Source: Hexactinellida sp. DTS-2022
Taxonomy: Eukaryota > Porifera > Hexactinellida
DNA length: 64,000 bases
Assembly (NCBI GenBank): GCA_028753945.1
Contig: JAPNXP010000005.1
Coordinates: forward strand, 744,001 to 808,000
Reading direction: 5' to 3'
The notes under the pieces were generated by a model, which saw only the letters and a list, made by a program, of their open reading frames with translations, was not told the DNA's origin and did no database searches. Position numbers and translations under genes: made by a program. How positions within the stretch are numbered: the first letter of the stretch is position 1; every line of letters begins with the position of its first letter. Positions 1,279 to 63,348 of the stretch are shown here, in pieces.

Positions 1279-4273
1279 TTAATATAATAAACTTAAATTT
1301 TACTACCGTATTTAGTACGGTATTTACTAATAGAGTGATATACAGTAGAACCTCGTTAGTATGAACACCAGGGGACCGTCAAAATGTGTCACATCCGGAA
1401 TTCGATAAACCGGTGTCACTTGTATTAAAAATGCTTTGAAAAGGACTGAAATAGTGTCCGTATTAACAAGAATATGATATTAACTGTGGCATAATAACGA
1501 GGTTCTACTATAGTCATCTGTTTAACACGTGAGTATTTAAGCACTATTAGAGAGAAATTTCAAAATTAGGATTATTACGTGACTTTTATCGCGCTATCCC
1601 AAAAAAGTAGACATTTAGGCAAAAACCATTTAAATAACTTCCAAATGAAATTATCAGTTAATTGCGAATACTAGTGACTCAATATCGCAATGTAACAACT
1701 ATATGTAAGTATGCTAGATATTCTTAATAACATATATATTCATATAGTCCCATAAAATGACACTATTCTGATATTCTAGAATATTAAAAGTGACTACAAA
1801 TACATTGGTTATCTTATGCATATAAATAATATTAATAACTTGGTTAAGACACAAAGTTAAGTACAATCAGGTCTGCTTATTGTGAACAATATTTCTTCTG
1901 TTAAATATGAACATATTTTTTTATAATGAATCCCAATTTAGCAACTTACATAAGGTTTGTATGAAGTGGAGTTCGCTTATTATGAAGTCTCTCTATTATG
2001 AACCCAATTATTGGTCCCTTTAATGTTCATGATAAAATAACCTGACTGTATCCATTTAAATCACCCATTTTATTATTGCATATAGAGCAAGGTGCAAAAA
2101 GTTATCATGGGACATAAATCAGTTGACAATAGATCATCTTTTTGGACAATTAAATTTTACATTAGAGCAATTTGAGGGAATTATTTAGATATCGGCCAAT
2201 AACATCTTTCCTAAATTTAATTTTCAGGCACTGGCAAGGTCAAAAATTCACCTTTGCGAAGCCGGGTTTTCTTATTAAAAGTGAGACCAATAGTACATAC
2301 AAAATCCCCAATTATATTTAAATACACCAGGTTACTTTGACCCGATTAAGCGGCAAAATCTATTAACCGAAAATATTTTTAGCCAAAATGTAATTCCGTC
2401 ATATAAATCATGTGAAATTTTGACCCGATTAAGCGGAAAAATCTATTAACCGAAAATATTTTTAGCCAAAATGTAATTCCGCCCTATAAATCCTGTGAAA
2501 CTTTGACCCGATTAAGCAGATAAATCTATTAACCGGTGGCTCTATTAAGCGGAGTCGACTGTACATATAACGACGTACCTTTGTAGAGAATATGACTTGT
2601 TTCCCGTTAACGAGCACTTTGGCATCTGCCACCGGTTCAATATGCATTGTCAGGTAGGGAGTGTCTGTTGTATTGGGGGAGAAGGATATTCTGCAGTGAG
2701 TATGCTTAATGTCCGTCCCTTGGATTGCTACGAAGGTACTGTTGTCTGTTAATCTGCCCTACAAACATAATTATGGTACAGTAAAACCTCCAAAAGTGAA
2801 CACCTCCAAGAAATGAACAAATCTAAAATATGAACACTTTTTCTCGGTCCCAAATTTTCCCCATTGCTTTAGACACACGTTATGATAAATCATGAAAAGT
2901 GAACACCTCTCAAAGTGAACATTTTGCTGGTCCCAGGGTGTTCACTTTCTATAGGTTTTACTGTATATACAATAATCCAAACCTCGTTAGTATGAACACG
3001 GTTAATACGAACACTATTTCAGTTCACTTCAATGCCTTTTCAATACAAATGATATTGGTTATTAAGAATTCTGGATAAGGCGAACATATTTTGACGGTCC
3101 CCTAGTGTTCGTACTAACGAGGTTCTATTGTAATAGCAAAAGCTTAATAGCTATTAGAGGAAAAATTAACAAGACATTTTTTTTCAAAAAGCTAAAGTTG
3201 TAGTTATTAGCAACAACATGTCCAATAAAATGATGAATCAAATCTATGATCAGTGGTGGGGTCATAAAGAGATAAATATCTAATTGCCAATAATTAAGTA
3301 AGTAAGTACATTCCATAGAAATAGGCGTGTTGCCAAGGTAACGCAATTGGGCTCAAACAATTTTAATACTGACATACGTAATTAAGATAGGATAGAAAGA
3401 GTCAGAAAACAACTTTACAATCACTCAATTTTAAGAAATATCCAAATAATGATTTTACTGAGTAAGTAATATTGGTAGATGAAAGGTTGTATGTAGCACA
3501 GTGATAATTATATTATAGAAATTAATATTGTGTTTCTCAATAATTTAATTAGCGTATTTAGAAAGTTGTTGAGAATTAGTCAAGTAAATACAAAAAATTA
3601 GTAATATTTAACTTTAATTAAATAATGAAACATTTGAATGTCTAACCAGTGGATCTCTAAAGTGTATAAAAATAGTTCGCTAATCGCTAAACCAAATTAA
3701 TTGATTTAAAACGGATAAAGTAGACTATCGTTAGTAGGAACACGGATAAGGCGAAATATCGGTTAAGGAGTACAAAGTTTAATTCCCCTAGCCTATACAA
3801 ATACATGCAAGTGACTCCGGTTAATACGAATTCAGGATAATACGAACAAATTTAGACGGTCCCCTGGTTTTCCTATTAACAAAATTTTGCTAAATCTTCG
3901 ATGTTAAGCTTACCTCTTTGTATTCACTGCCAATATACACAATATTGTCGTTGAGGTGTATGAGTAGAGAAGTTAGGATCGGATACGATCTCAGGGTTAG
4001 AAGAAATGGATATTCATTAGGGGTCTTGTGGAGATCCAAAAGATTGTTTATTTCCTCCTGTCTCGCTTCTCGATTGATAAGCGAAGATTCTCCTGTAAAC
4101 TCTAAATTATCCGGTTTTTCAATTTCAGTCGTAATCGCATTGCTAGTCGGTTCATTTGAGAATATTTGTGGTGGATCCAAAATGCATTCATTTTCAATTG
4201 AACCGTCATTTTCAAAATCAACATAAAAATCTTCACCAAAATTAACTGCTCGATATCTTTTGTTGAACGAAGT
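707..4273 (-). CDS. Afadin-like exons 5-7: FHA domain and start of DIL
   Basis: Exons 4273-3914 (120 codons), 2758-2579 (60) and 1207-707 (167) are all in phase 0. The FHA domain spans all three: PFLLTLRSYPILTSLLI and DNIVYIGSE in the first, IQGTDIKHTHCRI and VLVNGKQVIF in the second, GDLIQLGDKFLFMYRNP in the third. The rest of exon 7 is a disordered linker, then helices (NISNFDNLINAVTKNF, KLIPACMLSQGF). The donor at the left is CAA|gtgagt. No further exon could be seen between 1 and 706, so the next one is probably outside the window. Confidence 0.75.
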
Positions 4274-7200
4274 CTAAAATAAAAATAAAAATTAGCTTAC
4301 GAGTGTAAACTTTGTGGCTAATTACAAACATAATTAATCCACAATGCAACCAAATTGTTTACAAACAAGTTTACAATAAACTGTAAAAACAATCACTGGT
4401 AATATACAGTAATTGCTTACCACAAAAATTGTAAACTTAAAAGAATGTAATTTGAGGCTATTATTGTAGGAAAGAACACTCCAAAAATACAATTAAGAAT
4501 TCAGATTAACATTGAGCATCATAGCTTTAATTAAGATATTAAAGCATTGAGATAATTATGAATTTTGGGCAATATAATATCGAATTACCTTTTCACTGAA
4601 ACTTTCAGACATTTTTTTTCAGAAATCCTAGCGAATTAATGTTTTTATATTGAATGATGCTGGTCGATTTATAAGTAAGCCCTATGAAAATTTATTCGAA
4701 TATACCTATAGTAAACTCCCGTTATAACCAAGTCGGATATAACGAAATACCCGCTTATAACGAAATAGAGATTTTCTCCCAGAGCACTAAATGCAATTAT
4801 TATTATCCGCTTATAACGAATATCCGGATATAACGAAGGAATTTACAGGTCCCAAGCACTTCGTTATAACGAGAGTTCATTGCACTTAATTTAGGTTAAC
4901 TTGTACAAACATTATACTATACTATACTTACCGTTTCACTAGAAGAAACAGTTACACTCGAATGTTTCTTTAACTCAAATCTCCGCTCAATATCCGGACT
5001 AGCTTTACTCAAAGCATAAAGCGCGATTAATCTTTCCGCGCCGTCCAACCGTTTATCTTCCTCATGTACCCAAGCGAGAGATTTCGATCTTGGAATAGAA
5101 CTGTCTAATTTAGCAGTAGGGACTTCGTATAATCCGTATAACTCGTGTGACTCTTTCGCTAATCCCTCTAATTCCAATAACTTGCAAAGCGCTTGGTCTA
5201 CTGTAAGGTCATGGGTCAATAGCAGATTGCGACTAGTGCTATACTCATTACTGCCTGTGCTTATACAGAGGTGGATGGGAATAAATAAGTTGGGATGTTC
5301 GTATTCGTCAATGGTGGCACCAGGAGGCATTGTTGAGAACTTCCTAATCGGAGCGGGGATCTCGAAATCGTCAAATTCTTTCTTTTTACCTTTCCAACGC
5401 ATAATAGCACCAAAGCTAATATTCTTACGTAATTGGGTTCCTTTCGATTTAGAATAACTTTTGTTTCTACCTAAGGTACTTGCTCTTTCTTCTAATTGTG
5501 AACCCAGACTACTCTTACGAATTGTAACCGGTGTTAGAAATGGTTTCGCTGCATTTAACATTGGCGTGGATCCTCCTGTATTATTCGTGCTACTGGAGTC
5601 AGAACTCATTGTAGAAACCAGACTGTAGTTAGATGAAGAGTTTGGGTTAGATTTATAATCACTCGAGAAAAAACTATAAGAACTTATATTATAAATAATG
5701 TTGTTTAAGTGAACAGATAAGCTTGTACTATATATACAAGTGGTGTTCGCATAATAGCAAGTCGCATTTTGCACGAAATTTGCTTGTTAATAGGCGAACT
5801 TGCTATCATAGCACAAAATTAACAATAAATGCTCGCTTGGGGACTGAAAATAACTTGTTAATAGAGCAATATTGCTATTAGGCGAACACCACTGTATATA
5901 AGGTCATCAGTAATAAATGTGACTATATTTACAAATTATTATTATCATAAATTTTGCAGCAATTCTCAAATATGTAGCTTTTAATACCAAATTCAATTGG
6001 CATTTGTGTAAATGCAACTTGCTATTAGCCAAACTGTACTGTAATATTGTATACTAAACAACAAAATACAGTCAGGTTCTTTTATTATGAACATTCAAGG
6101 GACCAAAAATTGTGTTCATAATAGAGAGACTTCAAATAAGCGAACTCAACTTAATACAAACCCTATGTAAGTTGTTAAATAGGGACCATAGGGCTTGTTC
6201 AAAACGATAATATGTTTTATATAAAGTAGACGTAAAATTGTCACAAAAAACAGGCCTAATTGTTTTATACAAAACTGTAGAAAAGTACGTATTTAAATTT
6301 AATTAAATAAACTGCAACTATCCATACGTATTAATATGAATAGTAAAACAGTTCATTTTACACGTACTTTGTATAGAATAACGTGAAAATGTGTTACTCA
6401 ATGACTCATTACCGTTATGCTATTATAAACAGGAATTTCCTTATATAAATACATATCAATAACAGTGGGTTTCTCATATCACCTAACTTGATTCAAACAA
6501 TTAATCCAATTATAGCAATCAACAGACTATTTTCTACTAACTCAAATATTATGAAGAAGTAATTACAGTGTCTATAGTAGCCTATACCTTTACACTTTAC
6601 AGTATTTAACAAATGATTCATTAAGGGAATTAAATAATCAATTTACGTAGAAATTAAATTCTACAAAAGATGTGAAAAACAATAAGAAAACTACCTGGTG
6701 AGTTTAAGCATTGAATTTGGCGTTGAAGGGTTTGATTTCTGTTCAAATTTTCTATTATCTTTCAAGAGAAAATTCAAAATTTTCGAATTATTTGGAATAG
6801 ATATCGGTTGGTCTTCTGATGATAGAATAGTTTCACCTGAACAGAAATAGGTAAACAACAACAACAACGACAATAACAACAACAAACACAGGATCAAATC
6901 TCAGTACAAAAATTGTTCAAGCAAACTACCTTTTTTGAATAATAACAAATAATTGTAAGAAGTTTAATTCACAATCGTTTATTTAGTTATTGTATTAAAT
7001 TTCTTAGTGTAAGCTTATTATATAGATTCCTAAATGCTCACTACAGCATATTACAATTCAATGAATCTAATTGCGAGCAAATAGCACAAAATGTTTTGAG
7101 TCAGTCTATTCGAATGCTTTATATAACTAAGGATATGTAAACGTTGTATTAAATTAATATGCAAAATTGGCGATTGATAAATACACAGTGAACTCTCGTT

Positions 7201-10200
7201 ATAACGAAGTGCTTGGGAACTGTAAATTCCTTAATTATATCCGGATATTCGTTCTAAGCGGATTATAATTAACGCATTTAGTGCTCTGAGAAAATCTCCA
7301 TTTCGTTATATCAGACTTGGTTAAAACGGGAGTTCACTGTAAATAGTAATTATGGTGTTTTGGTATGGAATTAACCCCATTTGAACTGTTTTATTTAAGG
7401 TTTGATGTTTCTATTTTAAGCGTAGGAAATAAATGAGGGAAGTTCTATGTTAAAGTACAAACATAGGTTGGTGTTAAGTACTCAGGGTAATAAATATAAT
7501 TCACCCCTGCCTCCTTCAATTAGAATGTTTAACATTTTAAAACCCCAACCTAGCTACTAAGAAGAATACTACAGTAAACCCTCGTTAGTACGAACACCAG
7601 GGGACCGTCAAAATGTGTTCGCTTTATCCGGAATTAGTATTAACCAATACCATTTGTATTAAAATGCTTTGAAGGGGACTGAAATAGTGTTCGTATTACC
7701 CGTAATTTTCTATTAACCGTGTTCGTACTAACGAGAGTCTACTGTAGTATTTGGATGCTGATAATTTATAGACAATAAAATTATGAAAATGCATCGTTCA
7801 TAATAAATTGATTACCTTTAAAACCCTCAGAAAGAACAAAGGGTTAACCTAACATTTATATAATAACCTACAGTCTGTTTTAAAACATCAATCAGTAGTA
7901 CAAAAGATTATGAAATAAAATGAAGTTCAAAAGTGTATTGTACAGGTAGATTATTAGCAGTTGTGTAGGCGAAACATATGAATTATGTAAAATGGAACTT
8001 TTTGTGTATTGCACAAAAATAAGCTTTTTTAATCAACAATTTGCTCAAACGAATTTAATTCAATTGTTGGCTATATAGCACCTGGGTGTTAATATAAATA
8101 AATATTGGATATTTCTTCTCTTTATGAAAATTCAAATATATAATTAGAATTCACTCATTAAACTATGAACTTATATAATTATCACTTACTGATATTTGGA
8201 ACAGACAAATTACAAATACAAAGTGGTTGTAAATTGCGAAGTAAAGGGACCCTTAGTTTACTTCGTTATAAGCGGAATAAATCAACTTCTTTATTCGTCT
8301 GGGGTATATATACATTTATATGTACAGTAGAACCTCGTTAGTACGAACACCAGGGGACCGTCAAAATGTGTTCGCCTTATCCGGATTTCGTATTAACCAA
8401 TAACATTGGTATTGAAAAAGCTTTGAAGGGACTGAAATAGACTTCGTATAAACCGTGTTCATACTAACGAGGTTCTACTGTAATTTCGTTATTAGCAGGT
8501 ATTCGTTAAATCTGAATTCGATATAACGGGAGTTTATTTTATATAAATTGTAGCTTGTGAATTATTATAAAAATTGCTTGTTTCCATTAACTACTAACTT
8601 TATAAAATTTCGTGTATTAACTAATTTAAATAATCTCAAAAGTAGATCAAAACAATAAGGTTTGTCAGAAATATTGATCTGCTCAAACAAATAACAGCAC
8701 GATAAAATTACTGTGTTTAGAAAGCTATTTCTTGTTGGAAAGTACACGTACAATACTATGCAGAAAATACTATTGATTAATGAGCACAATTCCATCCTGT
8801 TCGATCGACATTTACATAAATAATTAAATCTAAATTTAACGGCAATACTTAAATTAACCTAACTTTCAAACCTATTGAATTAGTTAACTTAACAAATGAT
8901 TTGTTAATGCTAGTAGAAAAATTGATTTTCTCAGATCAAATAAACCAATAATCAAATGTATTCAGAAGGTGTGGTCGTTATTTTAATACAAGAAAGAAAA
9001 ACACTTTGATAAACCTAACATGTTTGATGTAAAGTTAACCATCTGTATACAGTGACAAGCTAGCTGTACTTATTTAATCAATTATTCCATGTACGCGCCC
9101 CGAGGTATATGTTTAGAGGTTTTCAACAGACAGTATACGTACGTAAGTTAATCATAATTATGTTTCTGAGAATGAACAAGTACAAGTAGCTTTCATTCAG
9201 ATAAAATTTCTGCGGGCCTAGATTAATTTGAGGTCGCTCACCACAGTGGCACGAAATGGTCAAATCCTGGAAGTAGCTATTTAGTTGTAAGGTAGCGCAT
9301 TAAACTATATTATTTACCTATGGGAAATCGCATTATTGGTAAAATACTTAATTTGTATTACGTCTATGGGAGCATCCTGAATTTAAGATTTCCGTTAAAA
9401 TTACGCGCCTGGATGAATGTATTTCAGGCGAATTGCGAGTTATTATAAGTTTTAGTGAAATAAGTATTGTGATTAGAATAAATAATTGGGTTATAAATTA
9501 AGAAAACACTTATTTATTCGCAGTTTAATTTTGTGTGTAATTTAAAACTTTCAACTATTATTTGGTAATTTAACAAGCATAATTACAAATACAGAGTTTA
9601 GTAAGTATCGATTGCAAATATTTTGGAATAAAAGCGATAGCACACAAATAGATCAGCAATTGGAAAGCTATTATAAACAATTAGAACCAAATTCTAACAA
9701 ATCTAAAACAGTACACCCTCGCTAATCCGAATGGGAGACTCAAAATATATTTCTAATAAAAGTGGGAATTAAAAAAAATACAGTATAGCTATATTACTAT
9801 GGAAGTATAACTAACAAGTTTCAGAAAAGTAGTATTAAAGTAGTAAACTATATGTTTTGTTCGGGATATAAAGGCATGGTTAACTTTGGTTCGGATTATT
9901 GAGGTTCTCATTATATAGATGGCATGGCTATAGAAATGTATTACTTTACTAATCCGAACGAATTTTAAATCAGAACACCACTGTTCGGATTAGCGAGGGT
10001 CTACTGTACTTGTAATTGTACAAATATTAAATTAATATTTTCGAGAACAAACACCATCAAAATTTTAAGACGAAATAATTATGAAGAGTAACGAAAATGC
10101 CATTGATAAATTGTTAAACCGTTATCAGACATTTATAAGATTGAATTATTACAAAACAATTCATGTTGCACTGTAAATCCCAGCTGATAAAATATACCAA

Positions 10201-13200
10201 CAAATCAAAGGAATTATAACTAATTACATTTTATTGGTAATTAAATGTAGTTATAAGTTGTTAATAAACTAAGAGGTAGTGGTTAAATATGTTTAATCGA
10301 GTTGTTTGTTAGTTTGTTGAATCATTTGTTAATTTGTTTGTATATTCATTTGTTAGTTAGTATGTTTGTTTGTTTGTGTATTTGTTTGTACGTCGTTTGT
10401 TTATCTGCTTGTATATTTGTTTGTTTAATTGTTTATTTGGATTTGGAATGAATATGGCAGTAATAATTTGAAATAAGTGGTTTAAACCTTGTTTAGGCAC
10501 AGCTGTAAAACGGGTTACGTTTTGAAGTGAATAGAAATACTAAAGTGTGTATGTAGACATGGTAAATCGTATGGTAATACAAGAAATAAAATGGGATAAG
10601 ATGAAAGAGCTTGTTATTACCGCTGGTTGATACGAAAAGATCTGAAAAGTTAGCAAAATGTATAATGTCTACATCATAAGAATAAGAGTGTATACAGCTG
10701 TGAATAATTAACAATCTGCGAATAATTATAATTATGTATATAATTGCAGACAATTTATTCATATTTGAGGTGGATAAGGTAAGGATCCCGGAAAAAAACG
10801 ATATTTTTCAAACAAATTAGATTTTTAGAATTTGAAATTAGGCGAAATCTATTTCAGACATAGTAATTCAACATAATATTACAAAGTATATTTACTTCTC
10901 AAATAACAATTGAATAGCTTTTATCAAATTTGAGTTATGTTAATTCAATTCAATGAATTATTATTCCCGAAATAATCAAATAAATCATTAATTTTGCCAA
11001 AAGGTCAGACATCATAGAGATTGTCTATTGAGTAGAACTCTGTTATAAGTTATAAGTACCTGTGTTAGTACGTACTAATTTGTTGTAACAAAGTTTGTAA
11101 AGCAGTATGTATTTATGTAGCGTAAACTCGGATAATACTTATTTTATAATCCCTCTTATATAATTGAATTTGTAAACGCACACGTATTTTAATTCAATTA
11201 ATAAATTCATTAAACCCCTATTCATTAATGAATGCGAAATTGACTTTCTGAATCCCAAATTGAGAGATTAAGCAGCCATATAATTAGCCAGTATTGCATT
11301 GACAGTTGAGTTACAAACAAAGACATCTGGGCATTCTATGTTAAACTTGAAATAACAGAAGTGAGCATTTAATCAGTTAATGGATAATTTGTATAATTCA
11401 TAATAACTGGGATAATCCAACCCTATTCATTGAATAATAATACAGTGAACTCCCGTTATAACGAAATGGATATTTCCCCAAAGCACTAAATGCATTAATT
11501 ATTATCCGCTTATAACGAATATCCGGATATAACGAAGGAATTTACAGATCCCAAGCACTTCGCTATAACTTGACTGCATAGTATACTAACAAATGCCAAT
11601 TTAACATAATATCCAACTTGTTTGAAACCGAATTACAAGATCATTTGGATACAATTATCTAAAGAATGCAAGAAAAGTAGATAATTCACGAATTTAGTCT
11701 ATAATTACCGTTCAAAACAAGCAAACTAGTTTGTGGATGAAATGTCCATACAAGTACATATTAGATGAAATAAATTTTATAAGCTTTCAATAGTTATAAT
11801 AAATTGGTATTGTGTAATTTCTTCTTTTGTATAACAACATGCCGGTTAAATGGAATTCCATTTGAAATTGATTGCTTGATTAATTGATGCAAAATACAAT
11901 AATATAATCTCGGTTTAAGGATATTAAAAATTTATCTAGATGACTTGTGAATATAGTATAAATTATTACATAATGAGACATAGCGTAAGACCATTGGTTT
12001 TAACACAATGGTATTAGATAATTAGATTTTGAATAATTTGAATAAATGAATCATTCAAATGAGAGACATAAGTTTAAGAGCATTTTGAATGATTAATTCA
12101 ATTAGATTTGTAAGATTTCGAATTAAAATAGAAGGAATTGGTTATACATTAGATCCTCGTTAGTACGAACACTGTTAATACGAACACTATTTCAGTCCCC
12201 TTCAAAGCCTTTTCAATACAAATGATACTGGTTAATACGAATTCCGGATAAGGCGAACGCATTTTGACGGTCCCCTGGTGTTCGTACTAACGAGGTTCTA
12301 CTATATATCAGCAACATATTTTTCCAATGTAATTTTAGCTTTAGGCACTGGCAAAGTCATAATTTTAACATCAACAATTCGTATTTAACAGGTGTAAGCG
12401 GATATATAAGCAAGCTCATATAATACAGTTCATGTAATAGCAAGCGCATTATGCACAAAATTTGCTTGCTAATAGTCAAATTTCTATTAGAGGAACACAA
12501 TTAACATTAAATGCTCGCTTGGGGACTGAAATAACTTGTTAACAGACAAATATTGTTATTAAGCAATTAGGCAACACTACTGTAGTTCAGAGGGAGTGTG
12601 AGATCAAATGTTAGTGGGTTTTAAAAGTAACCAATATACTCCATTAACTGGGATATTGCATTACTGTATAGTAGAGCAGATAAAATGGGATTAGGGTAGC
12701 TAATGATTTCACAGTTTAATCTATCTGGGAGGTGATTGGTTGAATTACAACCCAAATACTGAGAATAATTGTACACGGGTTGATTAATTTCTATTTTTAT
12801 AAGAATATTATTATCACAAAGGGAACATCAATAGTGAATATTGTTTGTAGTGGCATACTTATATATTGGCCGATACCTTTTTACATTTCAATATAAAAAA
12901 TGTATTTTTGATGTTAAAAATGACTTTGCCAGTGCCTAGAAAAGTTGTTGGCCGGTATACAGTAGAATCTCCTTAGAACGAACATCAAGGGACCGTCAAA
13001 ATGGTTTCGCCTTGTCCATAATTCATATTAATCATTATCATTTGTATTGAAAAGGCTTTGAAGGGGACTGAAATAGTGTCGTATTAACCCTTTTCGTACC
13101 AACGAAGTTCTACTCTACTGCATATATAAGTATTTCATTAGTTAATTATGTGTAAATACTTCCAGAACATTAATGGATTCATAATTTTGAACTGTACTAA

Positions 13201-16157: not shown

Positions 16158-16189
<32 letters not shown>

Positions 16190-16193
16190 TAAA

Positions 16194-16269
<76 letters not shown>

Positions 16270-17165: not shown

Positions 17166-17173
17166 ATGAATAG

Positions 17174-44926: not shown

Positions 44927-45096
44927 CAGTAGAGCCTCTGAACAACGGACACCTTGGGACCGGAACCATTGTCCGTTATTTAGAGGTTGCTTTTCTATTA
45001 GACATATGCTAAATAAATAAATCCGTGCCACGAGGGTTGTCCGTTATTTAGAGGTTGTCCGCTATTTGGAGTGTCCGTTATAGGAGGCTCCACTGT
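44927..45096. mobile_element. N-family Tigger-like MITE
   Basis: CAGTAGAGCCTCTGAACAAC to GGAGGCTCCACTGTA. GTCCGTTATTTAGAGGTTG is repeated inside. The GAACAACGG terminus is close to known Tigger ends. Confidence 0.8.
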
Positions 45097-46258: not shown

Positions 46259-46400
46259 AGGTAGAACCTCGTTAGTACGAACACCAAGGGACCGTCAAAA
46301 TGCGTTCGCCTTATCCTGAATTCGTGTTAACCAATATCATTTGATTGAAGACTTTGAATGTGACTGAAATAGTGTTCGTACTAACGAGGTTCTACTGTAT
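46259..46400. mobile_element. A-family pogo-like MITE
   Basis: AAGGTAGAACCTCGTTAG to ACGAGGTTCTACTGTA. It occupies most of the gap between TMEM97 and the FANCF-like gene. Confidence 0.85.
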
Positions 46401-47741: not shown

Positions 47742-47831
47742 TTCAACAGTAAAACGTTCGATTTTTCAAATTATTTTCTTTATTAATAATCTCTGCTGAA
47801 AACTAAAACCTTACAATAATAAAAATAAATA

Positions 47832-51100: not shown

Positions 51101-54100
51101 CTTGAGTATAACGGGAGTTCACTGTAGTTAGGTTCTGTTATTATGAACAATCAAGTGACTGAAATAGTGTTGATAATAGAGATACTTTATAATAAGCGAA
51201 CTCAACTTAATACAAACCCTATGTAGGTTGGTAAATTGGGACCATAGGGCTTGTTAGGGCCTGTAAGTACAGTAGATACCGGTTATAAGAACATGGTTGG
51301 GAGTAAATAAATATGTTCTTATAAGTTATAACAGTTACATTTTCAATGCTAATAAAGGACCGTTTCACATAATAATATTCGTATAACCAGTATTTACTGA
51401 TTCTCAATCAAAGTACTTACTGTATTTCCATCAATTAATACGTACCTGTGCAAGCAGGGTTTCATCAATGCGCGGAAATTTGAATTACTAGGCGCGCGAA
51501 ATTCGAGAGAGCTCCCATAGACGTACAGTGGAACCCCGGAAAACGGTCAGCCTCGGGACGATGAAAAATGGCCGTAATTATGAAATAAATTATTGTTAAT
51601 ATCTACTATACTATACGTATGAAGTCAAACGGGATCTTAAAAAGTGTCGGAATATCGGAGTGGCCAAATTTTCAGGATGACCATTAAGCGGGTTCCACAG
51701 TAATACAAAGAGCGCCGCCTAAAGGAGCGTAATTTGGCAGGATTTTATCTAGGCGTGCAAAAATCGATTCTAGGCCTACAATATCGAGAGTTGCTCCCAT
51801 AGACTAAATACAAGATGACTAATCTAGCGTACAAAATGAAAACTGAACGAGCTCTAACAAAATCTAGGAGCGTGGTAATTTTTTCCTGGATGAAAGCCTG
51901 ATCTACATATAGGTTATTTGAAGTTATTTCTAATACAAATTGAATCATTTAGGCACGTGTGAGCGAGGTCAAACTAAATTTTGGCGCACAGAAATTTAGC
52001 TTGTTATTACTTGAAAGTCTGCTTATAGTTAAACATACCGAGAATATAGGAACAGCTCTTGGGTTGGAAATAAAGACGGAAGTATTGAAGTTGATTGGAG
52101 TCGGATTAATCACAGAATAGGTGAAGTTAAATGTGAACGCTTGACTCCCCAAATCGCGAATAAACACTTCAGCTGTTTGCATAGACACAGTGTCTCGAGT
52201 GAGAACTATTTCAGTCTGGAAATTCCGAAAAGTAGTACAAACTGTACAGTTATTTATAAAGAAAACTCGTGAACTTTGTCTTTCTGGGTCAGAATCTATA
52301 GTTAGGTTCAGAGTAATGGTAGGGGGGCTCTCTCCTGGTGAGGAATAGCTGACGGGAAAGTTGAGTCTAAAGAAGGCATATTCCATTTCATCTGTTTGTC
52401 CGTCAATAGTCAGGTTTCTGCTGAACCCAGTCTCTCTAGCGATTATTGGGTCTATGGAGGCGAATGTGGGATCGCTTGTGGGAGTTATGCTGATGGATAC
52501 CACAGGCAGAGTTCTATAGGAGTACAAGGTTAATACCCTAGCACCTAGCCATTAAATGGGCAAGTCATATTATTAACGATTAATATTAACGAGAGTTTAC
52601 TCTACTGTGTAGAATAGCTGTTTCAAATATCCTTATCATATTAATACAATAATATTCAAATGAAAAGAAAAGCAATCAAAAGTGTACTCGATCCAGCCAA
52701 ACTATTTGAATAATCGGAAATCTCATGACTTCAAATATATCGCCATAGCAATAAGATTACCTGTAAACACTAGGTTTTCAAGTTTATAACGATAGTACGA
52801 TATTTTAGTCATTTCAAATTATAACAATGTACGGTCTGTTCCAGGGTTGTAAATAAATCATTTTTTTTTTCTCAAATCAAATCAAATCAAATCATTTTAG
52901 ATTTAAAATTATTTCAAATCAAATCATTTCAAATTATTTGAGATTTCAAATAATTTCAAATCAAATCAAATCAAATATTTGAAATATTTGAAACTTTCAA
53001 ATCATTTCTGAATCACTGTCAAAACGTATAGAAATTTTGAAAATGATCTTATATATTTGAAATTGAATTGAAAATGACGTGAAATTATACTAAAGCGATT
53101 TGGAAACGATTTGAAAATGATTTACCGAATATTATTTGAAAATGATCTGAAAATGATTTGAAAAATGATTCGAAAATGATTTGAAAATGATTTGAAATAA
53201 TTTCAAATCAAATCAAATCAAATCATTTGAGAATTCAAATATTTTCAAATCAAATCAAATCAAATCATTTGAGGATTCAAATAATTTCTAATCAAATCAA
53301 ATCAAATCATTTGAGAATTCAAATTCTCTTAAATCAAATCAAATTAAATCAAATATTTGAAATATTTGATTTGATTTACAACACTGGTCTGTTCTCTCTA
53401 ATAGTCCACTTATTTACTTGTCCAAATCAACTATTTATATATCTGTAATAGTCCATATTCACTAATAGTCCACTTTGGGCCAATTGCCCACTGGTGGACT
53501 ATTAGAGAGAACAGTGTGTAGTTATAATTTGTGTCCTTGTCATGTGCCACTTGTGGCACAAGTGGTACAAAATCCCGTTTCTTCAAATCCTTTTGGCAGA
53601 GTATATAATTAGCTGTCTGAGGTACCTGAACAGGAAGGCGGAGCTGTTAACATAGGCCCCCACGAGGATGTCGTTGTACCCGTTGTTGTCCACGTCCTGC
53701 TTCCCGGAGAGGGAGGCCCCGAAGGCGGCGCCCCTCCCCAGCCCCACCTCCTCCCCGCGGAGGGTCTGCGTGGGGAGCGCGCTCAGCAGCCCCTGGGAGG
53801 TCCCCGAGTAGATGTACACGGCGCCCGCCCCCGGCCCGTACGGGGCGGAGATGGCCACCTCCGGATACCCGTCCTTGTCCAGGTCTCCCAGGTCCGCCAT
53901 GGCTGTCCCGAAGCGCGCGTAGGGAACTTGTTGGATGATAGTGGTAGCTGTGCCCAGCCCAGACTAAACAGGGAATTCATTTGTCAAGAACAAGAATATA
54001 TACAGATGACTCCGCTTAATAGAGTCACCTCGGTACCAGGTTACTTTGACCCGATTAAGCGGAGAAATCTAATAACTGAAAATATTTTAAGCCAAACTGT

Positions 54101-57100
54101 CATTCCGCCCTATAAATCCTGTGAAGTTTTGACCCCATTAAGCGGAGAAATCAATTTAGATTTTTGTTAATTTATGGGTTTCCTTGGATTTCCAATAAAG
54201 ATATACTACGTACTACAGTTTATAATACACTTCGAGTTATTTTCTTGAAGAGTAACATTATTTTTGTATGTACTAGGTATGCTATTGCATATTTAATCAA
54301 GAATAACTTTGATCCAAGATAAATGCTACAAATCTCAGGAAACTAAATAGAAATTATGTTCCAAACAACCCATTCAGTTATTATAAAGTCTCTCTATTAA
54401 ACAATTTTTGGTCCTTGAATGTTCATAATAAATAACCTGACTGTATAGCAAGGAATTATCCAGGAGCGCAAGACGCTCCTTTTGGAGTATGATTTTTGAA
54501 AAATAATATTTAGGAGCGCGAAAATTTGAAATCCTCTCCTATACCGTAACATTAAATTGTGAATTAGGCGAATTAAAATTGAACCAGACCAATATTAGGA
54601 GCGTATTTACAAATGGCTGTATAATACACTGCTGTATAGTATAAATAACTAACCCCGTCATTGGTAAACACATGGACCTGTCCTATCTCGGTTTGTCCCG
54701 GGAGAGAATAAATAGGCGCTGACACCAACAACTCGTCGAGTCCGTCCCCATTCAGGTCCACTGCTAGGAGAGAGAATCCGAAGTATGCCTCCTGAGAAGT
54801 GCCGTGTACCGAGAGGACGGAGTTAAGACTCGTGGCAGTGTTGTTGCTGATCAGGAATATATTGCCAAGATGGCCGTTCTGTCTGGAAAGTGGAAACAAC
54901 ATGGAATACATAATCCAATTAAAGTATTAAAGTTATAAATAGACAAACAAATTAGTACGTATATAATACAGTAAACTCCGGGTATAACTAAGGTCAGTTC
55001 ATTAGAAATGTTAACCAAGTTCTTTGCATAAAAATCATAAAAATTAATGAATTTTACTGATTTTCCAAGATTTTTATTTATTTTAGGAATTTCATGATTC
55101 CCATGTATTTTCATGAATTTTAATTAATTTCTATGATTTCACTGTATAGGCTATATAGCTTCCTAAATATACATTTAGCACAATATTGTGTTATCTTAAG
55201 TTCTTAACTATTAATTTCCCATAGATGTACATATAATAAGTGTACCTATAACCCCGCACCTAAGCACACCTATATAACTAACACATAGTACCACAGCTAC
55301 AACTAACCTGGGCCCCGAGGCCACTATGGTATCCTCATCCCTACTCAGCAGTCTCCCAGCCGTCAGCGCATAGCCCATATACCCAAAGAAGCTCACAGGC
55401 TCAGTGAACACTCCGCTCTGACAATTGGTACCCTCAGTCCCACGAAACAGGGTGCCTCTCCAGTAGTTATACCCAGGAGCGCCGACATACACCTGAGACC
55501 CGTCGCTTAGTATTAAGGTGGACATACCAGCCATGCATTGTCCGAAAGTGATCAGTCTCGCACTGCACCCGCTGCAAGGAACGTACTTAACGCCTGGACT
55601 CAAAGCGTCCGGGAGGATATATATCAGGCCAAGCGGATTGCGGGAGTTGGAACCTTGTGTGTTGAAATATCTGCAATGCAATAATAGTGTTAACTTAATT
55701 GGTAAGTACAGTAGAACCTCGTTAGTATGGATATGGTTTTACAGTTGAAACCGGTTTTTCTAACCAATTCTTTACATGGAAATAAAGTAAGGAAATCTGA
55801 TAGCTAGAATAAACCGATTGAAAATAAACAAAATTTGGAATTTCTTACAGTTAGAGAAAACCGGTTTCGACTGTACGAAATTCTGGTTAATACGAATACT
55901 ATTTCAGTACCCTTCAAAGCCTTTCAATACAAATGATATTGGTTAATACTAATTCCGGATAAGGCGAAATCATTTTGACGGTCCCCAGGTGTTCGTACTA
56001 ACGAGGTTCTACTGTAAATAATACAGTTAGGTTATTATAATTATTCAAAGGACCAGAAATTGTGTTCATAATAGAAAGAAGCCCTATGGTCCCAATTTAA
56101 CAACTACATAAGGTTTGTATTAAGTTGAGTTCGCTTATTATGAAGTCTCTCTATTATGAACACAATTGTTAGTCCCTTGATTGTTCCCAATAAGATAACA
56201 TAACTGTACGTATATGAAACGCTATACCTGTTAGATGCCCACCAGGGTATTATACAGGACTATAATTGAACACTCATAATTGTCCTAAAGTCACTAGAGT
56301 ATGAATTTTGTACGCCTAAAAGGTTAGTTTTGTATTACTCTATGGGGACTTTTGGCCGTTTTCGCGCTCCTAAACGCAAACATATCTCAATTTTTGGCCG
56401 TTTTATACGCCTCTAGGCGTATGGTCTCCCGAAAATTAGGCATACACTATATTATATGATAGTATAAAGAACACATTACATAATCCTAACTACTATACTG
56501 CTTGATAATTATGTTATTATAATTATGTTTTAGTTGTTTGTAAGTGAATATTTGTTTCATAAGAAACACTTTAAACAATTTACAGTGTTAATGCTCCTGG
56601 TTAACCCCTGATGCCTATACACATAACTAGGGTGACCAGAGGATCTTGGGGCCAAAACCTGGACATTTCTCAAAATTTCGACAAGAATCCTGGGCACAGG
56701 TTATAAAAAACTGGACATTGTATTAGTTTAATGTGAGCGAATCGGAGACAATTGGATGATAATACAAATAACTGCTAAAAAAACCTGGACAATTTAGAAA
56801 ATTCCTGGACATCGCACAATAATTGTAAAAAAACTGGACTGTCCAGGCTAAAAGTTGAACAATGGTCACCCTACACATATCTACACATAAACCCCTGATG
56901 CCTATACGTATCTCACCTGTGTATGGAACGCTATACCTGTTCAATGCCTACGTATCCTCACCTGTGTCCACTGGTGACCACAGTCCCTGTCTCGTAGGAG
57001 CTGGTTACGGTGCCCCCCATCCACATGGTGGACTTATCCTCTATTTCCCCGCTGGACTCTCCGAGGTCTTCCCTCGCGTTGGGGCCAGACAGGTCCGGGA

Positions 57101-57815: not shown

Positions 57816-57846
57816 TCAATTCTACCGTACAGTTAATACTATTATA

Positions 57847-58005
57847 CAGTAGATGTCGGATATAAGCAGACCAGTTATAAGAACATATCAGATATAAGAA
57901 CATTATGTTGGAAAACGGTTGCCATATACCCTATATAATTTAGGTCGGTTATAAGAACATTAAGTGCAGTTCCCGACGATGTGCATATAACCGGCATCCA
58001 CTGTA
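57847..58005. mobile_element. C-family pogo-like MITE upstream of integrin exon 1
   Basis: It runs from CAGTAGATGTCGGATATAAG to ACCGGCATCCACTGTA and starts only 31 bases upstream of the integrin start codon, so it may lie in the promoter or 5' leader. Confidence 0.85.
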
Positions 58006-58473: not shown

Positions 58474-58538
58474 ATTATATATGCTACGGTAGATGTTGAC
58501 ACTTGGAACATGTTAACATCTACCGTAGCATATATAAT
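58474..58538. repeat. Perfect 24-bp hairpin with 17-nt loop
   Basis: The arms 58474-58497 (starting ATTATATATGCTACGG) and 58515-58538 pair at all 24 positions; the loop is GACACTTGGAACATGTT. It does not show the CAGT ends of the local MITEs. It may be a decayed palindromic element or a small-RNA precursor. Confidence 0.8.
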
Positions 58539-59124: not shown

Positions 59125-62100
59125 TCAAGAGAAATTAGGTGTAGCTGCCGAAGTTAATTCTTCCATATTTTGGATTCTACTTTGTTCCAATTTAGCTTTG
59201 TGTGACCTATTTTTCTTGAAAAAACCGCAAAAATATAGTGCTACAACTGATGGTATCATTATTAGCAGAAATGCAATAATGGCTAATATTATTATCCACC
59301 ATTGAGTAAACCCTTCATTAACTGCAATCAAACTGAGTGGAATTAACTTCAGTGTAACTTGAGAATTGTCAGGTTCGTTATTATCCGGTTGGACCGAGTG
59401 TTTATCTTGTATAAACACCTCAGAAAACACAGTAAACTCCCAAATTGACGCGGGCGCATTCACAGCAAGCGTAGCTTCAAACACATTTGCAGTTATTCGC
59501 AATTCATAAGAATTTCCCTGCGGTATTTCACCCATTTTACACTTAATTGTAATACAATATTCGTGATAGTCAACACACGATATATCAGTGTCGAATACTA
59601 TCTTCTCACTGTTCCCAGTTGGCTTAACAACAGTCTCTCTTTTACTACGCTCCACAAACAACTCATTTTCTGTATATATAACAGAACCATCCGTTAATTC
59701 GACAGAACGTGTTTTCCTGCCCCCTGGAGTGGTTTCACCCTCGTCAATAATAATTTTACTTTCTCTTAATTCTGCTACGTTAAAGTATGTAGAATCGCAA
59801 CGTATTTCATCCGACTCGTATTTAGTCGGGTACAGAAAGAAATGTGTGGCAGCCCTATCATTAGGCCTATCCAGATTCTTTAAGCCGAACGGCCAATGAA
59901 TGTCGAGAGTTGTGTTCAATATAGGACTGGGACCGTTATTGTGCACAAGGAAAATATAAGTAACTTCCGGACCTAAGTCGCTATGGTAGATTTCTGTTTG
60001 GTTTTCGGTGTCAATGAGGTGGTTAATCCTTAGCTTAGTTGATTCATTGAATGCCAACTAAAAGAGCAAATGGAATGTGTAAGTAAACAGAAATTGAAAT
60101 ACAGTCAGGTCTGTTTATTGTGAACAATATTTCGTCTGCTTAATATGAAAATATGAAAATTTAGTAACTTACATATGGTTTGTATTAAGTTGAATTCGCT
60201 AATTAAAAAGTATCTCTATGACTATTAGATGAACACAATTATTGTCCCTTGAATGTTCATAATAACAGCACCTGACTAAATTTAAATTATTCTAGTATAC
60301 AATTTTTTCCCCCTTATAAATAACCTGACTGTGTTAATTAGCTGTATTATTAGCATTGATATAAATACTGTATTAATTACCTGTGTTAATTAGCTGTATA
60401 ATAGCATAGATATAAACAGGGTTCTCGCCAGGATTTTTCGTTGTAAGGGTACATGAGAGTGAGATATTTCTTAATGTCAGTGATTAATGAAACCTTCAAA
60501 TAACAATATTGACTCAAAGGGTACATGCCCACTTTCAACATGCGAATAAAGGGTACAATAGCTTTCAAGAAGGGCATGTACTTTTGACAGAGGCCTAGCG
60601 AGAACCCTGGATATAAATACTGTATTATTAGCTGTATAATAGCATAGATATGAATACTGTATTATTAGCTGTATAATAGCATAGATATGAATACTGTATT
60701 ATTAGCTGTATAATAGCATAGATATGAATACTGTATTATTAGCTGTATAATAGCATAGATATGAATACTGTATTATTAGCTGTATAATAGCATAGATATG
60801 AATACTGTATTATTAGCTGTATAATAGCATTGAAATAAATACTGTATTATTAGCTGTATAATAGCATAGATATGAATACTGTATTATTAGCTGTATAATA
60901 GCATAGATATGAATACTGTATTATTAGCTGTATAATAGCATAGATATGAATACTGTATTATTAGCTGTATAATAGCATAGATATGAATACTGTATTATTA
61001 GCTGTATAATAGCATAGATATGAATACTGTATTATTAGCTGTATAATAGCATAGATATGAATACTGTATTATTAGCTGTATAATAGCATAGCTATGAATA
61101 CTGTATTATTAGCTGTATAATAGCATAGATATGAATACTGTATTATTAGCTGTATAATAGCATAGATATGAATACTGTATTATTAGCTGTATAATAGCAT
61201 AGATATGAATACTGTATTATTAGCTGTATAATAGCATAGATATGAATACTGTATTATTAGCTGTATAATAGCATAGATATGAATACTGTATTATTAGCTG
61301 TATAATAGCATAGATATGAATACTGTATTATTAGCTGTATAATAGCATAGATATGAATACTGTATTATTAGCTGTATAATAGCATAGCTATGAATACCTG
61401 TGTCGGCAGAACTTGCAGAGTGGTAGCTATATCCGCTGAGGCTATAACTCTGATGCTAACCGTTCTCTTGTTGTCGGCACGCGTGTGGTTAGCCTCCGGA
61501 TTGCTGCTAAGAACTTCCAACTCTATTTCCAAACTCCCCTCGTCTCCCCTCAGCGCGTCGCTATTGAATACGACACTGAACCTAACTGTGGAGGCGTTGT
61601 AGCCCTTGAGGGGGTTCCCCAAAGGGAAGCAGGAGAGAGTTGTTAGCTTTGTGACTTCCTAAGATAGAATAGAGCGGGTGTAAGACTAACAAACAACAAA
61701 CAAACAAACAAACAAACAAACAAAACAACTAACTAACTAACTAACCAACTAACAAACAAACAAATTAACAAACTAACAAACAAATTAACAAACAAACTAA
61801 CTAACTAATAAACAAACAAATTAACTAACTAACTAACTAACAAATTAACAAACAAACTAACTAACTAATAAACAAACAAATTAACAAACTAACTAACTAA
61901 CAAATTAACAAACAAATTAACTAACTAACTAACTAATTAACTAACTAATAAACAAATAAACAAATTAACAAACTAACTAACTAACTAACTAACTAATAAA
62001 CAAACACCAAACAAATAAACTAACTAACTAACTAACAAACAAACAAATAAACAACAAACAAACAAACAAACAAACAAACAAACAAACAAACAACAACAAC

Positions 62101-63348
62101 AACAACAACAACAATTACAACATACCTTGGCTATCCTACAGCCTATAACCAGGTCTCTATCCAGTGCATACGTTATCCTATACGAGACGCCTGTAGGAAT
62201 GCTCATCTGCAGAGCAGTCCCGAATGAGTCCTCTCCCCCGTTGCTGACCTCTACGCTGACATAGAACTCCGTGACCTCTCCGGCTACAATGTGTGCGTAT
62301 CGTCTGCTGTCAGAGGGGAGAGTGGGGAGGACCGCGTGGGCAACCAAGCGCAGGTCAGGAATGCAGATACGGTCAGAGCCGCAGTTCAGGTTAGGCTGGA
62401 CCTGAAATGGAGTAAGAACTCGGATATAATGTACCTGGTTAGTACGTTATAATGTCAGGCCCGGACTTAAGGCAGGACAAACGGGGCATTTGAATGTATT
62501 ACTATTTGTATTACAGTATACACTCGGTTATAACGTACCTTAGTACGTTAGAATGTATTACTGTTTGTATTACAGTAGAACCTCGTTAGTAGGAACACCA
62601 AGGGACCGTCAAAATATGTTCGACTTATCCGGAATTTGTATTAACCTTATGAATTGTATTGAAAAGGCTTTGAAGGGGACTAAAATAGTGTTCGTAGTAC
62701 CATGATCATACTAAAGAGATTTTAATGTAATTTGGTTTGTTCCATACTAATTAACTAAGTGTATAAAGTAGTATTTCTATATATAGGATAAACTCGTATA
62801 ACACGCACTTATTTGGGATACGTTATAACGAGTTATACTATATAAGTAATATCTTTGGGCTAAATAGGGTACCAACCTCATAACGTGGAATTCCTTTGGG
62901 ATTATTGATCGCTAGGGAAGTATTGAAGTCTAGCTGACTCGGATTAACTGCTGTATACTCAAAATCGAAAGGAATCGGTCTCAGAAAATTCCTATTTTCC
63001 TTCAGAAAAACAGTTAATCGTAGCTCAGTAGGTTTCGACTGTGTGAGTGACAACTCTTTGGTATAAACAGCCGACATAACATTGTTCTGTATAAAGAAAA
63101 CGCGAGGATTCTTTGATGCCTCATTTGCATCCGCGGTAACTTTCAAAAGAAGATTCATAGAATCAGGTTTGTCATCAGGAGTTGTAAAGGAAACCGGTAT
63201 TATTAGAATAAAATAAATATACTCAGTTTCCTCAGAGTTGAAAGTTAGGTTTTGAGTTCGGCCGGCGGCCCTGGCTTCCGCTAATTCTATGATAGCAAAC
63301 TTGGGAGTGCTGCTGGGGGTTATTATTATCGTAGCAACAGGAAGGGTT
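59125..63348 (-). CDS. Second integrin alpha subunit, C-terminal half (5' part beyond window)
   Basis: Four exons are present: 63348-62877, 62401-62126, 61658-61398 and 60057-59125 (stop at 59125). They correspond one to one with exons 6-9 of the neighbouring integrin (472/276/261/933 bp against 475/279/252/882) with identical phases. They encode thigh/calf domains (NLNCGSDRICIPDLRL, VAGEVTEFYVSVEVSNGGED), furin-like sites GGRKTR and VERSKR, one membrane helix (WWIIILAIIAFLLIMIPSVV) and GFFKKNRSHK. The first exon seen starts mid-codon (an AG from the previous exon completes Arg), so the propeller exons must lie right of 63348; none is in the last 650 bases. Head-to-tail placement indicates tandem duplication. 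The partner beta chain is not in the window. Confidence 0.93.
60102..60278. mobile_element. D-family pogo-like MITE in an integrin intron
   Basis: CAGTCAGGTCTGTTTATTGTG to AACAGCACCTGACTAAA. Confidence 0.75.
60330..61397. repeat. 37-bp minisatellite ending at an integrin splice donor
   Basis: About 25 or more near-identical units with core ATAGATATGAATACTGTATT and TAGCTGTATAATAGC. The array is interrupted once by a hAT MITE (60417-60609). Its right end runs straight into the donor (TGAATACCTGTGTCGG), so the first unit contains the splice site. Confidence 0.92.
60417..60609. mobile_element. hAT-like MITE in the first units of the 37-bp minisatellite
   Basis: Termini are CAGGGTTCTCGCCAGG and CCTAGCGAGAACCCTG. 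The exact 8-bp duplication GATATAAA (60409-60416, 60610-60617) is itself minisatellite sequence. Confidence 0.85.
61690..62121. repeat. AAAC/AACT tetranucleotide and CAA array filling an integrin intron
   Basis: The intron 61659-62125 is almost entirely (AAAC)n, (TAAC)n and (CAA)n. On the coding strand it is (GTTT)n and (GTTA)n. It begins three bases after the donor at 62124-62125. Confidence 0.9.
62575..62729. mobile_element. A-family pogo-like MITE in an integrin intron
   Basis: It starts CAGTAGAACCTCGTTAGT; the right end (AAGAGATTTTAATGTA) is decayed. Confidence 0.8.

Follow-up and report, generated by a model that had tools for sequence, protein, structure and literature searches.

Introduction

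The window, i.e. the whole analysed stretch of 64,000 nucleotides from a glass sponge (Hexactinellida sp. DTS-2022), contains many short elements (MITEs) that start with CAGT, end with ACTG and carry repeated boxes specific for each family. This raises the question why so many families share one plan and differ in its words, and which proteins read these words. The observation itself, made in an earlier note, is confirmed and holds in a stronger form than first claimed. The accompanying interpretation, that each family is matched to a pogo-like transposase or CENP-B-like protein of its own binding boxes all along the element, is partly supported.

Families, boxes and ends in the window

With 18 end seeds taken from the window and TA not required, 38 short elements with both ends in the window were found (A 14, B 6, C 5, D 4, E 1, F 4, G 3, H 1; Table 1). 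Families I and K are extra to this count and bring the families in the window to ten. Each of the eight boxes named at the outset recurs in both orientations (exact copies: A 26, B 5, C 9, D 9, E 5, F 6, G 7, I 5). Counted with the outer 26 bp of each end excluded, internal own-family boxes matching at least 10 of 12 bases amount to 68 in the 38 elements. Dinucleotide-shuffled sequences give 1.02 and boxes of other families 2.62, so that the count lies far above what composition yields; at a threshold of 9 of 12 bases, the respective values are 92, 8.7 and 16.5. The boxes do follow a common theme, better described as a single aligned site at the terminus, beginning at position 14.

The terminal CAGT/ACTG is preserved at 51 of 76 ends, TA is present at 65 of 76 flanks, and all four features are perfect in 17 of the 38 elements; the rule of CAGT start, ACTG end and TA flanks is valid for the families, but not for every decayed copy. 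Genome-wide, patterns of 27-29 nt with up to 3 mismatches yielded 4887 ends for A, 3070 for B, 1100 for D, 2949 for E, 604 for F and 736 for I, and a gapped exact pattern yielded 754 for H (C and G were left out of the counting); the reversed-pattern controls were all 0.

Table 1. Elements in the window. Strand + denotes that T2, the end with direct sites, lies on the left.
Element	Position	Strand	Basis
A MITE, 168 bp	1343..1510	-	A1 to A2 end pair, TA flanks, site scan
D MITE, 185 bp	1864..2048	+	end pair, site scan
G MITE, 185 bp, perfect ends and TA	2779..2963	+	end pair, site scan
A MITE, 157 bp, decayed ends	2974..3130	+	end pair, site scan
B MITE, 174 bp; sites 14, 44, 61 and 14, 29, 47 from the two ends	4709..4882	+	
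F MITE, 157 bp	5738..5894	-	end pair, site scan
B MITE, 154 bp	7186..7339	-	end pair, site scan
A MITE, 173 bp, perfect ends and TA	7572..7744	-	end pair, site scan
A MITE, 156 bp, perfect ends and TA	8325..8480	-	end pair, site scan
I element, ~300 bp, outside 38-element count	9708..10006 (about)	+	
B MITE, 139 bp	11443..11581	+	end pair, site scan
A MITE, 157 bp	12147..12303	+	end pair, site scan
F MITE, 155 bp, decayed	12421..12575	-	end pair, site scan
A MITE, 156 bp	12960..13115	-	end pair, site scan
C MITE, 164 bp as projected; real left end probably 13841	13873..14036	+	
D MITE, 194 bp, perfect ends and TA	20935..21128	+	end pair, site scan
C MITE, 148 bp, perfect ends and TA	24529..24676	+	end pair, site scan
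A MITE, 156 bp, perfect ends and TA	26206..26361	-	end pair, site scan
G MITE, 187 bp	27826..28012	-	end pair, site scan
C MITE, 158 bp	29764..29921	-	end pair, site scan
F MITE, 155 bp, perfect ends and TA	33405..33559	+	end pair, site scan
I element, ~295 bp, outside 38-element count	34404..34698 (about)	-	
B MITE, 170 bp, perfect ends and TA	36291..36460	-	end pair, site scan
A MITE, 155 bp	39446..39600	-	end pair, site scan
G MITE, 164 bp, perfect ends and TA	40624..40787	+	end pair, site scan
A MITE, 182 bp	40837..41018	-	end pair, site scan
B MITE, 174 bp, six sites complete, perfect ends and TA	42296..42469	-	
C MITE, 125 bp, next to B element 42296..42469, perfect ends and TA	42472..42596	+	
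A MITE, 160 bp, perfect ends and TA	43006..43165	+	end pair, site scan
E MITE, 185 bp	43186..43370	+	end pair, site scan
H MITE, 169 bp; joins, at a site, the T1 and T2 ends of transposase element L048 (H, 2,989 bp)	44927..45095	-	
A MITE, 139 bp	46259..46397	-	end pair, site scan
F MITE, 141 bp	49018..49158	+	end pair, site scan
A MITE, 165 bp, perfect ends and TA	49602..49766	+	end pair, site scan
B MITE, 171 bp, perfect ends and TA	50954..51124	-	end pair, site scan
K MITE, absent from the boxes of the earlier note; both ends match L017 transposase element; right end decayed	51526..51698	-	
A MITE, 158 bp	55857..56014	+	end pair, site scan
D element, two T1-type ends, sole exception among 38	56024..56206	.	
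C MITE, 157 bp, perfect ends and TA	57847..58003	+	end pair, site scan
D MITE, 177 bp	60102..60278	+	end pair, site scan
A MITE, 155 bp	62573..62727	-	end pair, site scan

Two unlike ends

The two ends of an element, denoted T1 and T2, are not alike. T2 harbors direct sites near positions 14, 30 and 47, with a further one at about 110 in long elements. In T1, the site at 14 is direct and those near 45 and 61 are inverted, mostly with GGGA in between. In slots that were chosen after the data had been seen and later widened slightly, and across families that are non-independent trials because they are related, own-family sites occupy T1 -45 in 18 of 22 families (expected 0.33), T1 -61 in 18 of 22 (0.41), T2 +30 in 19 of 21 (0.47), T2 +47 in 15 of 21 (0.45) and the fourth T2 slot (+101..119) in 13 of 14 long elements (0.71). 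Sites of opposite orientation number 0, 0, 1, 0 and 0 in these five slots. With slightly narrower slots and the same-end box alone, the four inner slots are filled in 15, 15, 17 and 15 of 21 families (expected 0.17-0.27). The own box matches the slots at 9.0-10.4 of 12 bases, the boxes of other families at 5.9-6.5. Slots are empty at T1 -45 in P2, P8, A and F, at T1 -61 in P12, C, E and P5, at T2 +30 in D and E, at T2 +47 in P3, P4, P11, A, D and F, and at the fourth T2 position in H. The H MITE of the window was discarded as a case of the fourth T2 site, its site there belonging to the T1 end, and the long H element is a miss (9/12).

One T1 is paired with one T2 in 37 of the 38 window elements and in all 38 H pairs drawn from the first 100 of the 754 H places. 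GGGA occurs at T1 27-42 in 15 of 22 ends (expected 2.0) and is absent in the other 7; TCCC occurs at T2 41-85 in 11 of 22 ends (expected 4.2). A GGGACC-like motif common to both ends was considered and dropped, as the direct T1-to-T2 likeness of own pairs is not significant (p 0.10).

The boxes are not arrayed along the whole element, as had been proposed. In elements of 2-3 kb, the sites are confined to the outer 60-120 bp, with 0-7 matches in the middle; MITEs look filled with boxes because they are little more than two ends.

Pogo-type transposases in the same genome

A CAGT start is typical of the pogo superfamily. Pogo-type transposases with such ends, which the earlier note had named as something to look for, are present in the same genome, with 114 matches to the DDE_1 profile (PF03184) at 92 loci and none in 14 control genomes. 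Eight of ten translated proteins scanned contain DDE_1, the other two being N-terminal pieces; HTH_Tnp_Tc5 was found in nine and CENP-B_N in three. The suspected CENP-B-like character also proved correct: the DNA-binding domain matches the CENP-B structure 1hlv in all four transposases tried (E 5.9e-14, 3.9e-9, 2.2e-8 and 0.0012), and a profile of this domain matches it at 8.4e-24, with homology over the full length. In P1, the family for which catalytic spacing was read, D279 and D309 are invariant with 29 residues between them. TA flanks all 16 long elements, which is no independent test because these were picked by searching TACAGT and ACTGTA. The P5 element starts with CAGG, not CAGT; a C-like end was rejected as its terminus, since P5 copies are alike beyond it and diverge only outside the further CAGG end, and the C-like unit is nested inside P5.

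In the portions available of two descriptions, Tigger and pogoR elements show a TA target, a short TIR, a length of 1.2-5.2 kb and CENP-B_N plus HTH_Tnp_Tc5 together with a DDE domain, the catalytic spacing being DD29-36D in Tigger and DD29-59D/E in pogoR (PMC7386202, PMC9219625). As judged from their sequences, the sponge elements fit the pogo superfamily, with a DDE_1 domain, CENP-B_N/HTH_Tnp_Tc5, TA plus a short CAGT TIR and, in P1, a spacing within DD29-59D/E. Peptide patterns detected no encoded relatives in viral contigs or in the genome contig collection.

The ends have a largely constant polarity: 16 of 17 families place T2 5' or T1 3' of the transposase, and 11 do so of the 12 whose two ends were read. 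P14 (L047) is reversed, and two loci, L071 and L088, show T2-like tips on the 3' side that are assigned to no family.

Partners of the window families

The claim of one transposase per family stands for two of the ten window families. Both H ends are 92% identical to those of the 2,989-bp element L048, and the K ends are 75-85% identical to those of L017. For the other eight it is not supported: E and G have diverged relatives only (E: P17; G: P1 and P2), and for A, B, C, D, F and I no same-family end was recognised as a transposase element end at the 92 loci, a search that covered DDE_1-detectable loci, extended 701 bp on the 3' side in 52 of these and left 41 of the 92 with no recognised T1 end. 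A transposase of family I at L065 was rejected, the I end there being part of a full I MITE (~300 bp) beside a P15-type end.

The missing partners of these six families, together with the fact that A and B are the most numerous of the families counted, could indicate that a few active pogo transposases mobilise many families via the conserved CAGT end, with the family boxes carrying little weight. However, the inner sites stay matched within each family, old autonomous partners are commonly lost or decayed, and the partner search had the scope just given; this explanation is regarded as unlikely.

MITE sizes and end fusion

The 38 H MITEs fall mainly into few sizes, with 22 copies of 187 bp, 8 of 168-170 bp, 3 of 101 bp and 5 others. 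In many short copies of H, P11 and E, the two ends are fused, seemingly at a site common to both, and the H size classes of 101, 169 and 187 bp fit such a fusion. The junction overlap measures 19-36 nt in 8 of 11 H copies, 33-47 nt in 4 of 7 P11 copies and 30-34 nt in both E copies; an overlap of more than 4 nt is absent in all 3 P8 copies, the single K copy, 3 of 11 H copies and 3 of 7 P11 copies. The same pattern was sought in A, where comparison of 154 with 171 bp gave no overlap (-42), and B copies of 155 and 149 bp differ from 173 bp by small indels. L108 shows a tandem duplication involving sites.

Site words and binding domains

Across 14-15 families, site similarity correlates with the similarity of the DNA-binding domain (rank correlation 0.50-0.53, p 0.0003-0.0007) more closely than with that of the catalytic domain (0.34-0.40, p 0.003-0.016), and the partial correlation with the binding domain is 0.38-0.42. 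An earlier run with a misassigned P5 end gave 0.41 (p 0.0022) and a partial value of 0.29. The notion of diverging element-protein pairs is strengthened by this relation.

The inner boxes might also be relics of duplication, in which the terminal repeat slipped inward without any binding role and the layout was passed on from one ancestor. The sites do stand in tandem at about 17 bp and recombine, as in the L108 duplication and in deletions at sites, and descent accounts for part of the common layout. Yet the slots persist although boxes of different families match at only about 6 of 12 bases and sites within an element at 9-10 of 12; without selection, inner sites would drift separately or vanish, and the closer tie to the DNA-binding than to the catalytic domain also argues against relics, which are considered quite unlikely.

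The CENP-B box is 17 bp long, about the length of the sponge sites. A host CENP-B-like protein that binds the boxes in place of the transposases, with families competing for or escaping this one factor, would suit that length and the origin of CENP-B from a pogo-type element as given in the accessible part of PMC7325037, but it is highly improbable, since so many site words sit poorly with a single protein and the words correlate with each element's own domain.

Proposed mode of action

It is considered likely, with good confidence, that the elements are non-autonomous MITEs of the pogo superfamily which keep both ends of their parents, and that these ends are arrays of putative sites of about 17 bp read by a transposase. 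Each MITE would comprise little beyond the two cis-acting ends of a 2-3-kb parent, with T2 derived from the 5' and T1 from the 3' side of the transposase gene, and each end would be a small array of one site, most likely read by the CENP-B-type domain (two helix-turn-helix motifs) of its family's transposase. Unlike ends may allow one T1 to pair with one T2 in the synapse. All sites of an element would change in concert because one protein reads them all. Same-direction sites at both ends could serve as repeats for internal deletions that generate MITEs of set sizes. The wider proposition, that at least 14 pogo-type families with site words of their own share one asymmetric plan of about seven sites, that word and CENP-B-type domain have changed together and that the sites are recombination points setting MITE sizes, appears evenly balanced between true and false.

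Comparison with known systems

Work by Wang, Hartswood and Finnegan from 1999 is said to have found that the helix-turn-helix domain of the Drosophila pogo transposase binds a 12-bp sequence in the terminal repeats, with two copies per end, of which the outer lies about 14 nt inside the tip. This outer place equals that of site 1 in the sponge elements, which differ in that one end has three sites and the other three or four, in fixed but dissimilar layouts that recur in many families with different words. The likeness to CENP-B comprises a DNA-binding domain homologous over its whole length (1hlv) and a site unit of about 17 bp; the difference is that the sponge sites vary by family. IR/DR elements of the Tc1 type, such as Sleeping Beauty, carry two sites per end in a like layout. 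The sponge elements resemble them in having more than one putative transposase site per end, but their ends are unlike and the inner T1 sites are inverted, whereas IR/DR denotes like ends with two direct sites each. Consensus ends of mammalian Tigger elements also have repeated boxes.

The available portions of the Tigger/pogoR descriptions give TIR length classes, without subterminal site arrays or unlike ends (PMC7386202, PMC9219625). For mariner MITEs, internal deletion between short direct repeats at microhomology is ascribed to abortive gap repair in the part of the source at hand (PMC5490172); in the sponge, by contrast, the deletion repeats would be the putative transposase sites, fitting recurrent size classes. 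No description of the asymmetric site plan was found in the literature searched, which included the accessible parts of PMC7325037, PMC5371812, PMC9976928, PMC9219625, PMC2170065, PMC2872659, PMC7386202 and PMC5490172.

Significance

About 14 naturally diverged pairs with a constant layout would make it directly testable how a CENP-B-type domain selects its DNA, and by what route a transposase and the six or seven sites of an element can change while activity is kept. If the proposed reading is true, the families would be a natural set of separate protein-DNA pairs for decoding how a CENP-B-type domain reads its site, and they would provide a rule of pairing unlike ends for pogo synapsis; deletions from site to site would explain the few exact MITE sizes per family. 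Different docking words at constant places suggest that enzyme and words change together over time.

Element ends in the window and in the genome

A search of the window with 18 end seeds recovered 38 short elements with both ends, whose tips read CAGT/ACTG at 51 of 76 ends and are flanked by TA at 65. At a match of 10 of 12 positions these elements hold 68 internal boxes, compared with 1.02 in shuffles and 2.62 for other families' boxes; at 9 of 12 the figures are 92, 8.7 and 16.5. The repeated family boxes described in the earlier note are confirmed as recurring within the window, and their arrangement is a real, strongly non-random feature. In the genome (112.4 Mb screened, 18 contigs), ends with at most 3 mismatches number 4887 for family A, 3070 for B, 1100 for D, 2949 for E, 604 for F and 736 for I, and a gapped exact pattern finds 754 for H; reversed-pattern controls gave 0, and families C and G were left out of these counts. 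Other features of the window are collected in the table; its integrin-alpha and NHL-repeat coding pieces make an animal origin of the genome probable.

Features of the window
Feature	Position	Remarks
A-type ends enclosing elements, or ends, of families D, E and G	1343-3132	suggests nested insertions
E element	2334-2535	2.4 copies of 83-bp unit
142-bp tandem array	21450-22264	5.8 copies, 92%
NHL-repeat protein	28414-29643	
Integrin-alpha type coding pieces	48117-63389	Integrin_A_Ig_3 twice, FG-GAP; perhaps two adjoining genes
D element	56024-56206	T1 at both ends
37-bp tandem array	60610-61397	21.3 copies, 98% matches; unit contains ACTGTA and so imitates element ends

Two unlike ends with fixed slots

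The grammar of repeated boxes proposed earlier is better described as a set of fixed slots at two unlike ends. One end (T1) carries a site 14 nt from the tip, usually GGGA at 27-42 (15 of 22 families, 2.0 expected), and then the inverted site at about 45 and 61; the other (T2) carries three direct copies at about 14, 30 and 47. The distinction was first made by eye and the seeds were labelled accordingly; on this basis 37 of the 38 window elements combine one T1 with one T2 end, a D element being the exception. In family H, where the two kinds of end are separable by tip length, all 38 close pairs do so (among the first 100 of the 754 H places, all on contig 1).

Slot occupancy was scored with one representative end per family, at 9 or more of 12 positions and with expectations from shuffles. 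P1-P17 denote families seen at transposase loci and grouped by end sequence (P3 is the added family K, P6 is H).

Own boxes in five slots (nt from tip, - for T1, + for T2), fixed after the site layouts of window and long elements were known; the counts are not independent trials, because families are related (P6-P10, P4-P13, P7-P12, P1-P2)
Slot	Own box	Expected	Missing in	Opposite orientation
-42..49	18/22 families	0.33	P2, P8, A, F	0
-58..67	18/22 families	0.41	P12, C, E, P5	0
+27..33	19/21 families	0.47	D, E	1
+44..50	15/21 families	0.45	P3, P4, P11, A, D, F	0
+101..119	13/14 long elements	0.71	H	0

In element coordinates all slot sites point the same way, save the outermost T1 site. The mean match inside the slots is 9.0-10.4 of 12 for the own box and 5.9-6.5 for other families' boxes; between families the word thus changes but its positions do not, and sites within one element bear much the same word. 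An array of boxes along the whole element, also proposed in the earlier note, is not borne out: the middles of 16 long elements hold 0-7 matches per 1.7-2.7 kb (a raw count without shuffle control), and the sites are a feature of the ends. How the sites and the synapsis work is inferred.

Transposases and their partners

PF03184 has 114 matches in the genome and 0 in 14 control genomes. Merging of neighbours leaves 92 loci, 40 of them read over 3.4-4.6 kb and 52 over 701 bp at the 3' side. A T1 end lies 3' of the transposase at 49 of the 92 loci, with two further weak cases (18 bits), and a T2 end at one (L047); no T1 end was recognised at 41 loci. Unassigned T2-like tips lie 3' of the transposase at L071 and L088, the one at L071 matching P5 MITEs. 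A T2 end is found 5' at 20 of the 40 loci having upstream sequence (counted manually). T2 at 5' together with T1 at 3' was read in P1, P2, P3, P4, P6, P7, P8, P10, P11, P12 and P13, and the single end read in each of P5, P9, P15, P16 and P17 agrees, so that this polarity holds in 16 of 17 families; only P14 (L047) is reversed, with the direct-site end 3' of the transposase. All 16 long elements having both ends are bordered by TA on both sides, which is no independent test, since they were selected via TACAGT and ACTGTA searches.

Stop-to-stop frames of 502-592 residues occur at at least seven loci (L009, L011, L021, L024, L026, L032, L035). Of 10 translated pieces searched with Pfam, 8 contain DDE_1 and 9 contain HTH_Tnp_Tc5, and four of four transposases matched the CENP-B-DNA structure 1hlv across both helix-turn-helix units (8.4e-24 for a profile of eight transposases). 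The last two catalytic aspartates of P1 are separated by 29 residues, within the range printed for both Tigger and pogoR in PMC7386202. The window families are best described as MITEs belonging to pogo-type elements whose transposases are of the CENP-B type.

The suggestion that each family is matched to its own transposase is borne out for H and K only. E and G have relatives only (P17, about 74%, and P1 and P2, 73-79%, respectively), and no same-family transposase for A, B, C, D, F or I was found among the ends recognised at the 92 loci. Their partners may be extinct, may be too decayed to detect or may sit at loci without a recognised end, or these MITEs may be moved by transposases of other families. 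P4 apparently made few or no MITEs, because 13 ends were found genome-wide (at most 3 mismatches) and 0 short pairs among them.

Site word and DNA-binding domain

Differences of the DNA-binding domain were compared with those of the 17-nt terminal site in the 15 families in which this domain is readable, leaving out P8 and P17. The two sets correlate by rank at 0.53 (Mantel p 0.0007); with one base of shift permitted and whichever end fits better taken, the value is 0.52 (p 0.0003). The catalytic domain gives 0.40 (p 0.0033) and 0.36 (p 0.0077), respectively, and the partial correlation for the binding domain is 0.41-0.42. Site word and putative reader domain thus appear to change together. 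A first run, with a C-like piece as the P5 end, had given 0.41 (p 0.0022), 0.32 for the catalytic domain and a partial value of 0.29, with P5 as an outlier. This end was rejected because divergence between copies sets in only outside it, at the true end; the correction is based on this boundary, to which the outlier status of P5 had drawn attention. With P5 removed (n=14), the correlation is 0.50-0.51 (p 0.0003) and the partial one 0.38-0.40. The C-like unit, about 125 bp long, is nested near the 3' end in the six P5 copies read (L022, L023, L024, L031, L038, L040) and seems to have multiplied together with P5.

Short forms resembling fused ends

Compared with the 2,989-bp H transposase element, the window's H MITE gives a 92% match to 63 bp of T1 and to about 122 bp of T2, and the two matches overlap by 19 nt, i.e. 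one site. Of 11 H copies (the window copy and ten picked by size), 8 show overlaps of 19-36 nt (one or two sites) and 3 are rearranged, one of these carrying a tandem duplication. H pairs (n=38) measure 187 bp (22), 168-170 bp (8), 101 bp (3) or other sizes (5), in steps consistent with site spacings: the inverted T1 sites, at 44 and 62, lie 18 bp apart, and 68 bp separate T2 site 3 from the shared site within the MITE (48 and 116), a distance of 65 bp in the long element, the MITEs holding three extra bases. End matches overlap by 33-47 nt in 4 of 7 P11 copies, the three others being dimer-like, and by 30-34 nt in both of the short E copies (101-102 bp) that were set against one of 186 bp. 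The values are 4, -18 and -20 nt in three P8 copies, -40 in one K copy and -42 in the A comparison; in two B comparisons the copies are set apart by small indels. The 174-bp P11 copies L111 and L115 consist of a 73-nt T2 piece and what looks like the 101-bp form.

Because of the overlaps and the H size steps, many short copies of H, P11 and E look as though they arose by deletion between sites of the same direction in the two ends. Mariner MITEs are known to arise at microhomology (PMC5490172); the present analysis adds that the repeats would be the putative transposase binding sites themselves. The H copy L108 (273 bp), built on a repeated unit of about 86 bp, looks like a site-to-site duplication, as does the E element with its 83-bp units.

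Reach of the plan

The consensus ends of mammalian Tigger elements bear repeated boxes as well, whose arrangement may be comparable. If it is, the plan would be general to these elements and undescribed in the literature searched; it would then be less new, with a wider reach.
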